This document shows positions 40,988-45,819 of a stretch of DNA of 45,819 nucleotides, one piece after another (position 1 is the first letter of the stretch; each line of letters opens with the position of its first letter). Made by a program: the position numbers and the translations under genes. Source of the DNA: Candidatus Cloacimonadota bacterium (lineage in GTDB: Bacteria; Cloacimonadota; Cloacimonadia; Cloacimonadales; WRIO01). Under the pieces are notes generated by a model, which was not told where the DNA came from, ran no database searches, and saw only the letters and a list, made by a program, of their open reading frames with translations. The stretch is from positions 1 through 45,819 of the forward strand of contig JAKPKU010000023.1 of assembly GCA_029553545.1 (NCBI GenBank), written 5' to 3'.

Positions 40988-41947
40988 CTAAAAAACAAAG
41001 GAGCCTAAATCAAAGAGGTCCTCATCCTTTTCTGGCTGCCATGTACGCACATAAATCTTGGGATGCTCATCATCTGTAAAATCTATCATCAAAAACAAGT
41101 AGCCCTTATCTGCATAGTAGTCGCCACGCCATGTCTGCAATAATTGCACACCATAAATATTATCATTTTTGGGTGAGATAGATATGTCGATATCATCAAA
41201 GAAAACGCGTATCTGCTTATTATTTGCGAAAACCCTCTTTGTATGGCTAATATATTCAGACTTATTCTGCTTTACATACTCAACCTTTTCTGGATCAGCC
41301 AATTTGACTTCTTTGCTTGTCAAATCTGGTTCAATGACCCTACCTACGATAATCAAGGCATTATCGCTAAATACTTCATCCAAAAAAGCAATATCTTTGC
41401 GATTATAAGCGGTCCGATAGTTCTCCACAAAGTCGGTAATTATCTTCTTTTGCCGATACTCTCGCGCTGGCAATTTACTGTCCATAATCTTGCTGTACAT
41501 ATGATAGTCAAGCGCAAAACTAATATCTTCAATTTTGCCTGCAGCATTGACATTGATCACCAGTTCTGCATTCTCAACATCACCAGTGCCATTATTGACC
41601 AGGACAGGAATATTACGCAATTCAAAGTTCGCTGCTGCCTGCTTTAAGAGATTCAATTGAATAGAGCCCTCAGCACAATAAAAAGGGCTATTTTCCCAAA
41701 TACTATTGATGCGATTAATAGCCAGGGCTGTAAAACACTTGCTATCCAGGCTCAGTTTTGTTTGCCCTGCATAACTACTATTTGCCTCATTAATCAATTG
41801 CGCCACAGCGTTTTCAATCTGATTTGCCAACTCTTGATTTGACCTATATCTCACTGTCACTTCCGTACGAACTTGTGCCTGTACCATAGCAAAAACCGAC
41901 AAGAAGAGAATTATTAAAAATACTCTTATTTTAAAAACTGTATCCAT
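40988..41947 (-). CDS. Exported protein with an NTF2/SnoaL-like region
   Basis: 319 residues, ATG behind GAGGTG. The signal peptide (VFLIILFLSVFAMVQA, cleavage before QVRTEV) is clear. The middle part (about 165-200) contains IITDFVENYRTAYNRKDIAFLDEVFSDNAL-type sequence, which is typical of nuclear-transport-factor-2-like folds. The C-terminal part has VQLLQTWRGDYYADKGYLFLMIDF and ends in VRTWQPEKDEDLFDLGSF. Periplasmic or surface proteins like this occur in Bacteroidetes with unknown role. It overlaps the upstream PKD-domain gene by 22 nt, so the two are probably made together. Confidence 0.75.
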   Translation of the reverse strand: MDTVFKIRVFLIILFLSVFAMVQAQVRTEVTVRYRSNQELANQIENAVAQLINEANSSYAGQTKLSLDSKCFTALAINRINSIWENSPFYCAEGSIQLNLLKQAAANFELRNIPVLVNNGTGDVENAELVINVNAAGKIEDISFALDYHMYSKIMDSKLPAREYRQKKIITDFVENYRTAYNRKDIAFLDEVFSDNALIIVGRVIEPDLTSKEVKLADPEKVEYVKQNKSEYISHTKRVFANNKQIRVFFDDIDISISPKNDNIYGVQLLQTWRGDYYADKGYLFLMIDFTDDEHPKIYVRTWQPEKDEDLFDLGSFVF

Positions 41948-43422
41948 ATACCACCTCTCCCTTTTTTCAATATTTCACTGTCTTTCACTGCCTGCTGATC
42001 TCGCAAATCAATCCTGCCATTATCTTCAGGTGAGATTAAAGAGATAATCCTTTCGCTTTTAGCATCAAATAATAAGATATATGCTTGATCTGCATTGGCT
42101 AATTGATCTTTAGAGCCAAATATCAGCTTACCTTCATTCTTCTTTTTGCTCAGCCAGGCAATTGCCTCTCTTATCCGCTCAAAACTCAGTAGTTGATCTA
42201 TATCTGCTTGACTGGCAAATACCTGCTTAACTGTGACTTGCCTATATGCAATTTTCTCCTGCACACTGCTTTTCTTATCTTCAACTTTTGGCTTTGGCAC
42301 ACCAATTGTAACAGCCTTGGTAACAGTAAACAAATTATTAACTGTGAGGCTAATACGATAGACGCCATCTCTCGCATAAACGTATTTAGGATTTCGCTCT
42401 GCTGTTCTTGGGCTATCATCACCAAACTGCCATTCAAGAGATTTTACACTGATATTCTCGATTATTGGCTTGAGGTTTATCTCTGCCCCATCTTGTTTGA
42501 TTTCTATATCGATATTTACCAAATTACTAAAGTCTATCTCATGGTTAAAGCTGTAGCAAATAGGATATTCCTGCAAAAGCTCTTGCACCTCCTTATTCAA
42601 GTCAGCCATCTCACTATCATAATTCAAGACCATCTTTTTCTTCAGCCGCTTTTCCGAACAAAAGCCAAAGATATACAGTTCAGCTTTCCCATCAATCACC
42701 TTTTGTGCGATATCATCACCTTCAAATGCCAGCTTCACATTATTCAAGGGCACTTGAGCATTTGTTATATTAAAAGAAATAGGAAAAGCATCGGGTGTCT
42801 GTGCATTTGGCTTCTGCACCGCAGATTGAACTCGACTCTCTTGCAAATAATCATATAAAATATTATACACATAGAGGTTCAAATCAGGCTTATCATTATA
42901 GGCTATAGCCTGTGGCAACATCATAGTCAGAGTATAAATATTCAAGTATTCGGATATTACACTCTCTATCCCTATCCTCTCCTCTTTCGCCCCTGCTATT
43001 TCCATACGCTTGATCAATGCACTACTCTGCTCATCAAGCCATCTCCGATAAACCGACTTATTCAAGTAAGCAAGTACATATTGCGTCTTTTTGTCTTTAT
43101 ATGAGATAAAATTATATCCTGAGAGCTTAATCTTACTGGACATCTCAACTCGCTGTTGGGCTATTTGCTCCTGGCGGCCATTATACTCAGCCTGCACATC
43201 AGAGACATTCACCTGCACATTAGCCTGAATCTGCAAAATTAAATTAGCCAAAGCTGTCTTCTTTAACTGCTCTTCACTGACACGCTCATTTGTTCCAGCG
43301 CTACTCTCACCTATATAATATTCCTGCGAACCCTTAATCTTCAGGTAATCAGCCTTACTATCAGCAAATAAGAGGCTTGCCAAGACAACCAAAACAATTA
43401 TAATAAATAACCTTACCTTCAT
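41926..43422 (-). CDS. Exported PKD-domain protein
   Basis: 498 residues from the ATG at 43422 (GAGG five nt upstream; GTG at 43428 overlaps it). The signal peptide is LFIIIVLVVLASLLFA, before DSKAD. The next region (about 20-140: YYIGESSAGTNERVSEEQLKKTALANLILQI) resembles LPP20/FlgT-type N-terminal domains that begin with a GxGxS-x-A-like repeat. A PKD domain lies at about 320-385, shown by WQFGDDSPRTAERNPKYVYARDGVYRISLTV. The C-terminal 100 residues may be a DUF4384-like domain (QAYILLFDAKSERIISLISP). A cell-surface or periplasmic role is inferred. It is adjacent to the DGR, but no adenine-mutagenised repeat is visible in it. Confidence 0.78.
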   Translation of the reverse strand: MKVRLFIIIVLVVLASLLFADSKADYLKIKGSQEYYIGESSAGTNERVSEEQLKKTALANLILQIQANVQVNVSDVQAEYNGRQEQIAQQRVEMSSKIKLSGYNFISYKDKKTQYVLAYLNKSVYRRWLDEQSSALIKRMEIAGAKEERIGIESVISEYLNIYTLTMMLPQAIAYNDKPDLNLYVYNILYDYLQESRVQSAVQKPNAQTPDAFPISFNITNAQVPLNNVKLAFEGDDIAQKVIDGKAELYIFGFCSEKRLKKKMVLNYDSEMADLNKEVQELLQEYPICYSFNHEIDFSNLVNIDIEIKQDGAEINLKPIIENISVKSLEWQFGDDSPRTAERNPKYVYARDGVYRISLTVNNLFTVTKAVTIGVPKPKVEDKKSSVQEKIAYRQVTVKQVFASQADIDQLLSFERIREAIAWLSKKKNEGKLIFGSKDQLANADQAYILLFDAKSERIISLISPEDNGRIDLRDQQAVKDSEILKKGRGGIWIQFLK

Positions 43423-43659
43423 ATACACCTCATTACCAGTATATTTTTAGCCGCTTTTCTTGCAAGTATTTTTTTTAGAATTAATTAATGACTGCTTGCA
43501 ATCTGCTTTGTGTCAAAACAAATGTCTCTTTGTCCATAATCAAAACAATAATACAAACATTTAAACATGAGTCATAAAAGATTCTTTGCCATCCATGGAC
43601 AGGATAAAAATCCGAACAATTCTTAATACTGATGATATATCCGTAAACATATCATATCT

Positions 43660-43825
43660 GATTTTGTAGATGTGCCAAAACGCGAAGCCCAAGATTGTTG
43701 TTGCTATTGCCAGGACTATTGTTGTTGCGATTAGCCACACGGCAGTTGTTGTCATTGTTGTTCCAGCTGCCGCCACGATTAACACGGTTGGACCCACTAT
43801 TGTGATTTTTACCCCCAAATTCGTT
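43660..43825 (-). repeat. DGR template repeat (TR)
   Basis: Directly after, and overlapping the end of, the reverse transcriptase gene on the same strand. In one frame the minus strand reads NSGSNRVNRGGSWNNN, then DNNCRVANRNNN, then SPGNSNNNLGLRVLAHLQNQI and a stop. At least 17 AAC/AAT codons are present. These place adenines at the first two codon positions, the hallmark of a mutagenic-retrohoming template for a C-type-lectin-like (formylglycine-enzyme-type) variable domain. The frame has no start codon or ribosome site and is not itself a gene. Ends are approximate. The non-adenine-rich 3' part (CTTGGGCTTCGCGTTTTGGC) is where the homing-initiation sequence would be. The remainder of 43429-43660 is AT-rich with no gene. 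Confidence 0.88.
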
Positions 43826-44795
43826 CCCTGAGTTTAAAAGTATTAGCTGTTTTTATAAAGGCAAGTGTGCTATTTACACTGTTTGCCATAGCATTTTCAG
43901 TAATTCTCCCAATTTTGTATAAGTATTCTTTTTCTTTAATCTTTTTTTTCATTCGTTTGATATTTACGTTCTGCAACCTAATATAGTCTGGAAATATTCT
44001 AAAGCCCAAAAATGGTAAACCTCGATTACAATAATTTAACTGCACAGACTTTTCTTTTATCCTCAGTTTTAAAGAAGTTAATAAAAACTCCTCAAGCTCT
44101 TTAAATAGCATCTTAAGCTTATCTGAAGAGTCAGAAAATACTACTATGTCATCCATATATCGAACATGGTGATTAAATCCCTTTTCTTTAATAAAATGAT
44201 CTGCTTTATCCAGATACACATTGCCAAAAAACTGACTGCTGAGATTACCTATAGGCAAGCCGCAACTATTCTCTGTTGTATGAGTGGCTATAATCTGCTT
44301 TATTAATTGGTACATTCTTTTATCGTGGATATTATCTGCCAAAAGCTCGTTTAATACATCATGATTAATACTGTCAAAATACTTTTTTATGTCGAGCTTT
44401 AAATAATACTTATTAAATTGTGCATATTGTTGTGCACGATACACTGCCTTATGCATCCCTTTCTTCTTTCTTGTCGCATAAGAATCATCAATAAACACTC
44501 TTTCATAAATTGGCTCAATTACATTAATCAGTGCATGATGTACTATTCTATCACGAAATGCAGCGACGCTAATAGTTCTCTCTTTTGGTATGTATATTTG
44601 AAAATACTTATAGGGTGATGTTTTATAAGTATTATTAACCAGCTCTATTTTTAAACCTGCTAAGGCTGATTCACAATAAAACATAAACTTCTGATTCATT
44701 TCCTTGTGCTTTTTACCACGCAAAGCTTTTTTATATGCCTTATACAAGTTCCGCCAAGAAACCATTTCATCAAACATTGTTTTAGTTGTTTGCAT
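43809..44795 (-). CDS. Diversity-generating retroelement reverse transcriptase
   Basis: 328 residues from the ATG at 44795, downstream of GGAGG; a TTG at 44816 would overlap that site. Retroviral-type palm and fingers: RTISVAAFRDRIVHHALINV, VFIDDSYATRKKKGMHKAV, then YYLKLDIKKYFDSI (motif A). The GLPIGNLSSQFFGNVYLD block has IGxxxSQ, the DGR signature, where group II intron enzymes have QGxxxSP. The catalytic motif is YMDDIVVF. The thumb includes NRGLPFLGFRIFP. The enzyme copies the TR RNA with errors opposite adenines and the cDNA replaces a variable repeat. Its 3' end overlaps the TR, and its 5' end overlaps avd by 14 nt. Confidence 0.96.
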   Translation of the reverse strand: MQTTKTMFDEMVSWRNLYKAYKKALRGKKHKEMNQKFMFYCESALAGLKIELVNNTYKTSPYKYFQIYIPKERTISVAAFRDRIVHHALINVIEPIYERVFIDDSYATRKKKGMHKAVYRAQQYAQFNKYYLKLDIKKYFDSINHDVLNELLADNIHDKRMYQLIKQIIATHTTENSCGLPIGNLSSQFFGNVYLDKADHFIKEKGFNHHVRYMDDIVVFSDSSDKLKMLFKELEEFLLTSLKLRIKEKSVQLNYCNRGLPFLGFRIFPDYIRLQNVNIKRMKKKIKEKEYLYKIGRITENAMANSVNSTLAFIKTANTFKLRERIWG

Positions 44796-45123
44796 CACTC
44801 TTTTCCCAACCTCCAAGCATTTTCCCTGTTGTATTGATCTCTATAACTACTCTCTCCATTTGTTCATGCGACAAATAAGCTTTATCATAAGCTATACGCA
44901 TTAAGATTCTTAACTTCTCTAAATGTAAGTTTATCTTCTTAAAATAGGCTTTTTTCTCTTTTGAATAAATAAGTTCAATGATATCTTCAATTATATCAAA
45001 ACAATGATTCTGGATCCTTGTTGTCAGTACGAATCTCATCGACTTTGGGAACTTCTCGCTCACTGCCAGAATCAGGTTCAGCGATTTGTACCATTGGTTG
45101 AATATCGGATAATCCTTGTTCAT
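44782..45123 (-). CDS. avd: DGR accessory variability determinant (Avd)
   Basis: 113 residues, basic and helical. The block SEKFPKSMRFVLTTRIQNHCFDIIEDII (about 21-49) is the standard Avd / 23S-rRNA-IVP-like four-helix-bundle sequence. LEKLRILMRIAYDKAYLSHEQ and VVIEINTTGKMLGGW follow. Avd pentamers bind the reverse transcriptase and TR RNA and are needed for mutagenic retrohoming in studied elements. The first 43 codons overlap the HRDC-protein gene in another frame (128 nt), yet the FPKS motif is encoded there, so the overlap appears real. Confidence 0.93.
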   Translation of the reverse strand: MNKDYPIFNQWYKSLNLILAVSEKFPKSMRFVLTTRIQNHCFDIIEDIIELIYSKEKKAYFKKINLHLEKLRILMRIAYDKAYLSHEQMERVVIEINTTGKMLGGWEKSDANN

Positions 45124-45568
45124 TATCGCCTTCTTTAATAATCTTCAATAATTCTTCTCCATAGAGCGACATCTTATTGCCACCCATACCCTGAATTTTT
45201 GAAAGTGCATCTTTACTCATCGGTTTCTTGGTTGCAATTCTTTGAATAATGTCATTTGTTATAACAATATATAAAGGGATCCCTCTCTTTATTGCTTCTT
45301 GATGACGCCAGATCTTCAATTTATCAACCAATATTTCATCTTCAATATCTAAAGCCTCTGTAGGTGAGTCTTTAGTATCTTCCTTGATTTTACGCCGACC
45401 GCTATATGTGTCATACTCGACGACAAATGTCCAACATGGTACATCTTTTGATACAAAAAACTCTTTTCGGATGTATTTGACACGATGGGTGGCAACAAAA
45501 TTAGCCAGTTCTTCATCATCAAATTTATCATTATCAAAATCATAAGCCATGGAAAATACCTTTATCAT
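44996..45568 (-). CDS. HRDC-domain DGR accessory protein
   Basis: 190 residues from the ATG at 45568 with AAAGGAGGTG upstream; GTG/ATG at 45589 lacks a site. The opening MIKVFSMAYDFDNDKFDDEELANFV and RKEFFVSKDVPCWTFVVEY are typical of DGR-linked proteins. Residues about 95-155 form an HRDC domain (WRHQEAIKRGIPLYIVITND, RIATKKPMSKDAL, QGMGGNKMSLYGEELLKII), as in RecQ and RNase D. The last 35 residues are acidic and probably disordered. HRDC proteins are a known but poorly understood accessory group of DGRs, presumably binding nucleic acid. It is the first gene of the cassette. Confidence 0.9.
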   Translation of the reverse strand: MIKVFSMAYDFDNDKFDDEELANFVATHRVKYIRKEFFVSKDVPCWTFVVEYDTYSGRRKIKEDTKDSPTEALDIEDEILVDKLKIWRHQEAIKRGIPLYIVITNDIIQRIATKKPMSKDALSKIQGMGGNKMSLYGEELLKIIKEGDNEQGLSDIQPMVQIAEPDSGSEREVPKVDEIRTDNKDPESLF

Positions 45569-45599
45569 CAAAACACCTCCTTTATACATTTTTTGCGCG

Positions 45600-45765
45600 A
45601 CGAATTCGCTGCGGGCGCAGCAAATTCGTAAACCGCTCGATGAAATTCACTGCTCATTTTTCTTCTTTCATGACACAGAAATCCATGTCTCAGCCATGCA
45701 GTACGGTTCGCTTCGCTCACACGCTGCAATGTCTGAGACATGGATTTATGCAGACAAAGTCTGCA
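45600..45765. repeat. Cluster of three palindromes upstream of the DGR cassette
   Basis: Hairpin 1 (45600-45629): ACGAATTCGCTGCG pairs with CGCAGCAAATTCGT with one mismatch. Hairpin 2 (45681-45745): ATCCATGTCTCAG pairs perfectly with CTGAGACATGGAT, extending imperfectly inward. Hairpin 3 (45749-45765): TGCAGAC/GTCTGCA with a three-base loop, then seven T on the plus strand. The stretch is richer in G and C than its surroundings. Nothing else is visible from 45569 to the right edge apart from the HRDC ribosome site. Confidence 0.75.
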
Positions 45766-45819
45766 GTTTTTTTAAAAAGGTAAAAAGGTAAAAAAGCCAT
45801 AATGTTACTGAATTGTTCG

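Follow-up and report, generated by a model that had tools for sequence, protein, structure and literature searches.

The window, i.e. the whole stretch of 45,819 nucleotides that was analysed, is an entire contig (C16) of a source genome assembled in 268 contigs. Near its right end, a minus-strand cassette spanning 45589→43676 carries genes for an HRDC-domain accessory protein, an accessory variability determinant (Avd) and a reverse transcriptase (RT), which overlap one another (Avd overlaps both HRDC and RT) and are followed by a template repeat (TR; Table 1). All three reading frames are intact, and the true start of the HRDC gene likely lies at 45568 (MIKVF...) rather than at the first ATG. 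The RT contains the motifs IGNLSSQ and YMDD and matches PHROG_1423 (E=8e-102); its best solved relative is the PDB entry 8ub7 'Reverse transcriptase' (E=3.6e-50), which we take to be the RT (bRT) complex of the Bordetella phage BPP-1 diversity-generating retroelement (DGR). In the PHROG search, Avd also matched the family 'Avd protein of DGR'. The RT is present as a single copy in the genome, and its relatives among genome contigs are distant (32-37% identity). The initial annotation had described an RT with both motifs, an Avd, an HRDC accessory and an adenine-rich TR, all on one strand, and each of these was confirmed on the minus strand at the place given; only the extent of the TR (43660-43825) was too generous, the homology to variable repeats (VRs) being narrower. 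The cassette is a complete DGR. The next gene on the same strand, after the RNA that follows the TR, encodes a PKD-domain protein of 500 aa (41926-43428). A phage origin was also considered: blastn gave no match in phage records, and neither a relative of the RT nor a copy of the VR end was found in viral contigs.

Table 1. Features of the retroelement in the window (contig C16) and its VRs on other contigs of the same genome
Feature	Position	Strand	Evidence or remark
RTIQ*, end of the cassette-adjacent target gene (four codons plus stop)	45805..45819	-	the C166 and C75 target genes end in the same sequence
Pyrimidine-rich element TTTTTTACCTTTTTAC beyond the stop codon of the target; putative target-site component	45780..45795	-	
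Inverted repeat TGCAGAC-TTT-GTCTGCA, candidate target-site stem-loop	45749..45765	-	55 nt past the VR end
HRDC-domain accessory gene	44996..45589	-	197 aa from first ATG; Pfam HRDC E=2.9e-17
Avd (accessory variability determinant)	44782..45123	-	NCBIfam DivGenRetAVD 92.4 bits (cut-off 80); bAvd Pfam E=3.1e-19
DGR reverse transcriptase, 335 aa	43809..44816	-	Pfam RVT_1 E=2.7e-24
TR	43676..43798	-	123 nt, 35 adenines; adenine-specific comparison with C166 and C75 VRs
Structured RNA, RT-14-like (candidate spacer RNA), directly 3' of the TR	43567..43674	-	Rfam RT-14 26.9 bits, E=0.087
VR	C166:75-197		homology to TR
VR	C75:309-432		homology to TR

Read in the frame of the target, the adenines of the TR occupy codon position 1 (19) or position 2 (16) and never position 3, mostly within AAY Asn codons, and the TR ends in an adenine-free, IMH*-like tail, TCTTGGGCTTCGCGTTTTG. 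Using the TR as a query against the genome, a check proposed in the initial annotation, yielded two clear VRs. Over the 123 nt, the VR on C166 differs from the TR at adenines alone: 20 of the 35 are changed (11 to G, 7 to T and 2 to C) and none of the 88 other positions is (Fisher p=6.4e-14). The tail TCTTGGGCTTCGCGTTTTG is the same in both, and the two sequences diverge immediately beyond it. The VR on C75 is changed at 16/35 adenines and at 10/88 other positions. Matches differing at non-adenine positions had been named beforehand as evidence against a DGR; the C166 VR has no such difference, and the ten in C75 fit an old or retired VR (see below) and carry no weight against the retroelement. 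FGE paralogs on other contigs that are not targets show 21-56 non-adenine differences from the TR, the closer ones 21-27. Those on C216, C173, C3 and C228 (L018-L022, L028), with 21-27 non-adenine changes, have a mild adenine bias (p 0.0001-0.006); they could be fossil targets or only have domain constraints in common.

As had been noted from the start, no gene in the window contains a VR. The sole part of a target consists of the 15 nt that follow a VR, i.e. the minus strand of the contig opens with CGAACAATTCAGTAA, encoding RTIQ* as at the gene ends on C166 and C75. This edge sequence starts exactly where the TR/VR homology ends, so the contig end has severed the cassette-adjacent target right at its VR. 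The target had been predicted to lie either just past the right edge or elsewhere in the genome, and both alternatives were borne out, the latter by the VRs on C166 and C75 and by further target ends on C210, C268 and C166. More specifically, C268 stops at the same base as C16 and carries a truncated HRDC remnant, C210 stops within a target gene just ahead of its VR (SSSYYSSSP), and the other end of C166 holds the N-terminal part of another target gene. Counted by their 3' ends (C16, C268, C166 and C75), there would be at least four target genes, provided that all contigs represent one strain; this is a minimum estimate, as the assembly does not connect C210, C166 and C268 with target genes. 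One RT/TR pair serves several targets, namely the cassette-adjacent one and dispersed copies. Remnants of the HRDC gene start stand behind the VR flank at C268:3538-4082 (L040) and, more decayed, at C166:430-500 (L002), so the targets seem to have been spread by duplication of a unit comprising a target and the HRDC start.

The break of C16 at the edge of the VR may have nothing to do with VR diversity in the population and reflect only assembly forking within near-identical duplicated flanks (C16, C268 and C166), and we give this account an even chance. The flank of C16 is 97% identical to that of C268 over 228 nt, with the same end base, and 90% identical to that of C166, which favours forking; yet both contigs stop precisely at the limit of the TR/VR homology, a point at which diverse VRs would break the graph as well. 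The issue concerns the contig break alone, and forking is compatible with a DGR.

The target gene on C75 is complete and combines fibronectin-III repeats with an FGE-sulfatase domain (E=1.9e-47), which covers residues 272-531 of 534 in the target and has the VR in its final part. The best solved relative is the Treponema denticola variable protein 1 (TvpA, 2y3c; E=4.4e-49), in support of the C-type-lectin-like fold that had been suggested for the target. The C210 target starts with MKLRLLIIVLLAMFAFSC and the C166 target with MKIRALIIVLLAMFVVSC, both lipobox-like as judged by eye. The targets have fibronectin-III repeats in addition to their C-terminal FGE/CLec domain; they are predicted to be lipoprotein-like and are presumably displayed at the surface, where they would bind a ligand.

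Two DNA elements behind the VRs are candidate parts of the target site. The first is an inverted repeat: in C16 and C268 its 7-bp stem lies 55 nt beyond the VR, and C166 has it with one mismatch (among shuffled windows of 100 nt, 2% contain such a stem); on C75 there is no inverted repeat of >=7 bp within 200 nt of the VR. Efficient homing in BPP-1 requires an inverted repeat after the VR (PMC3240598). The second is the pyrimidine-rich element, which reads TTTTTACCTTTTTAC after the VR at each of C16, C268 and C166. A degenerate form of the pattern has five matches in the genome and none for a reversed control; three of the five stand behind VRs and two, at C42 and C148, do not, i.e. the element is enriched there, not exclusive. 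Similar elements follow the VRs of most cassette-adjacent relatives. A partly held-out test on readable VRs was mixed (L114 and L125 have the element after the VR, L120 has a weak form, and L119 and L121 stay below threshold), and part of the loci that support the element had also served to define it. None was found behind the C75 VR, nor behind the remote VRs L100, L109 and L112. Lacking this element and carrying non-adenine changes, the C75 VR fits an old or retired target, as far as a single gene can suggest. A long imperfect palindrome also lies between target and HRDC gene (45676-45750) and recurs on C268; on C166 both of its arms are altered together, from CCATGTCTCAG/CTGAGACATGG to CCATATCTCAG/CTGAGATATGG. 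A separate repeat, GGTAATTTCACTGCGTGAAATTG...TACAAATAAGGCTATTTGTATTT, is found 3' of both the C166 and the C75 targets (L002, about 590-700; L003, 1-170).

The RNA directly downstream of the TR scores below the gathering score of RT-14 (RF02921; 26.9 vs 48.1 bits), hence we call it RT-14-like and not a member, while the RNA of G012 lies above that threshold (59.4 bits). In 20 relatives, the region behind the TR has two features in common, namely a hairpin (UG-Y-NNNN...NNNN-CA, then AA) and a second stem around AGUAG...CGAA. In an alignment of trimmed segments (A1), 80% of cells pair vs 60% in shuffles, none of which reached any measure. Changes on both sides are seen in 14 of the 16 pairs, and slid structures score far lower, although this control is partly biased, the structure having been set by hand from the same sequences and then tested; the hand-setting does not account for the two-sided changes. 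RNAalifold gave nothing useful on a first, long alignment.

A covariance model built here (R1) gives 17 bits in the window (43563-43622), compared with 32-77 bits in relatives. The first parts of the window RNA are recognisable, and the second stem, i.e. the 3' AGUAG/CGAA hairpin, is unrecognisable; by its sequence it reads as a weak, partly degenerate (reduced) version, and its function could be weakened accordingly in this copy. R1 has matches in 30/125 genomes of the phylum (28 genomes within the order), and the Rfam model, at E<=0.01, in 6 of the order's 107 genomes; the latter coincide with the R1 position in relatives and have the same AGUA/GAA hairpin. Nearly all of the 30 R1 loci examined adjoin an RT or a TR. 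At L134 (G030:C2:106575), where both are missing, a VR-bearing target gene is fused to a truncated TR-downstream RNA, and this locus is the scar of a DGR lost by deletion. Another match without an RT (L150) adjoins short repeats and no TR, and G024 has two extra copies of the RNA (C45:18724 and C36:30638) besides that of its cassette.

In BPP-1, the spacer RNA that follows the TR adopts a fold, brings in bRT-Avd and provides the adenine used for priming (PMC12875486), and by analogy the RNA downstream of the TR would be the DGR spacer RNA. On balance we lean towards a broader reading in which RT-14 represents the spacer RNA behind the TR in a DGR lineage spread across the phylum, its covarying AGUAG/CGAA (bulged-G-like) hairpin would position RT-Avd, the pyrimidine-rich element would mark genes that are still rewritten, and the lineage of the window would have a reduced RNA.

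The architecture is conserved within the order. Six relatives (L076-L081) have target-HRDC-Avd-RT-TR on one contig, and each has a VR changed at 17-27 adenines and at no more than one other position (p values between 7e-9 and 2e-15); at L082, L084 and L085 the arrangement is target-Avd-RT-TR, with HRDC undetected. The RT matches of several relatives contain an internal stop codon.

We are all but certain that this is a chromosomal DGR, with an operon of target, HRDC, Avd and RT followed by the TR and a structured RNA, in which one RT/TR rewrites several FGE/CLec targets. The RNA that contains the TR would be reverse-transcribed by the RT together with Avd, with wrong bases inserted opposite its adenines. 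The resulting cDNA would then take the place of the VR in the 3'-terminal part of a target gene, and the adenine-free TCTTGGGCTTCGCGTTTTG tail (IMH) that TR and VR have in common would serve as its anchor. The ligand-facing Asn codons (AAY) of the C-terminal FGE/CLec domain would be randomised in this way. The HRDC protein, the downstream RNA and the VR-flanking elements presumably have roles in the DGR as well.

Judged by its sequences, the DGR very likely worked not long ago and probably still does. It could instead have been inactivated recently, i.e. it wrote the C166 VR not long ago and its downstream RNA has since lost the 3' hairpin and with it its function. The low R1 and RT-14 scores of the window RNA, its unrecognisable AGUAG/CGAA hairpin and the absence of the RT from one same-genus and two same-family genomes searched all speak for such a loss. 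Against it, the frames of RT, Avd and HRDC are intact, and the C166 VR matches the TR at every one of the 88 positions where the TR has no adenine, which implies a short time since the last rewrite; we therefore hold recent inactivation to be unlikely. That an ordinary RT (of a group II intron or a defence system) merely sits beside an unrelated adenine-rich repeat and paralogous genes, with FGE paralogy behind the TR/VR likeness, is refuted to the point of near impossibility by the C166 VR (no non-adenine differences vs 21-27 in the closer non-target paralogs), by an Avd equivalog match over its cut-off, by 8ub7 as the best solved relative of the RT and by the recurrence of the adenine-restricted pattern in relatives, even though the group II RT model TIGR04416 reaches 156 bits (under its cut-off of 300) and other FGE paralogs in the genome show some adenine bias.

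The prediction of a DGR with no visible target has become a checked case, with one target at the contig edge and dispersed copies elsewhere. It also calls for caution in surveys of DGRs, as an assembly can be interrupted precisely at a VR, and a DGR at a contig end that looks 'targetless' may have targets after all. Furthermore, a covarying RNA 3' of the TR gives Rfam RT-14, an orphan family, a testable function, and the R1 model detects DGRs, as well as scars of lost ones, in the phylum.

This type of DGR is already known; the additions are (i) a multi-target genome, (ii) a proposed DGR role for RT-14 and (iii) a candidate VR-flanking DNA element. Among the closest known systems, the DGRs of G012, a complete single-contig genome, and of five other genomes of the order share the target-HRDC-Avd-RT-TR order, a similar TR and the same target family, whereas their RTs are only 46-50% identical to that of the window and the RNA behind their TR is complete. 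Of the systems described so far, the DGR of Treponema denticola comes closest; it has TvpA and six further targets and an HRDC accessory (PMC4891356). There too, the HRDC gene overlaps its neighbour, a single TR/RT has several remote targets, the targets are mostly lipoproteins with an FGE/CLec fold, and some of them have excess non-adenine changes (PMC4891356). The present DGR differs in that HRDC and Avd are both present, the TR lies 3' of the RT and the targets have fibronectin-III repeats. With the BPP-1 DGR (bRT-Avd-TR, Mtd target) it shares an RT homologous to 8ub7, Avd, an IMH at the 3' end of the VR, a structured RNA 3' of the TR (PMC12875486) and possibly an inverted repeat after the VR (PMC3240598); unlike BPP-1, it has bacterial rather than phage targets, several of them, an added HRDC gene, an RT-TR instead of a TR-RT order, and a candidate inverted repeat at a greater distance (55 nt), whose loop is TTT in place of GRNA. 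The likeness to Rfam RT-14 (RF02921) lies in the position directly after the TR and, in the relatives, in the AGUA/GAA hairpin.
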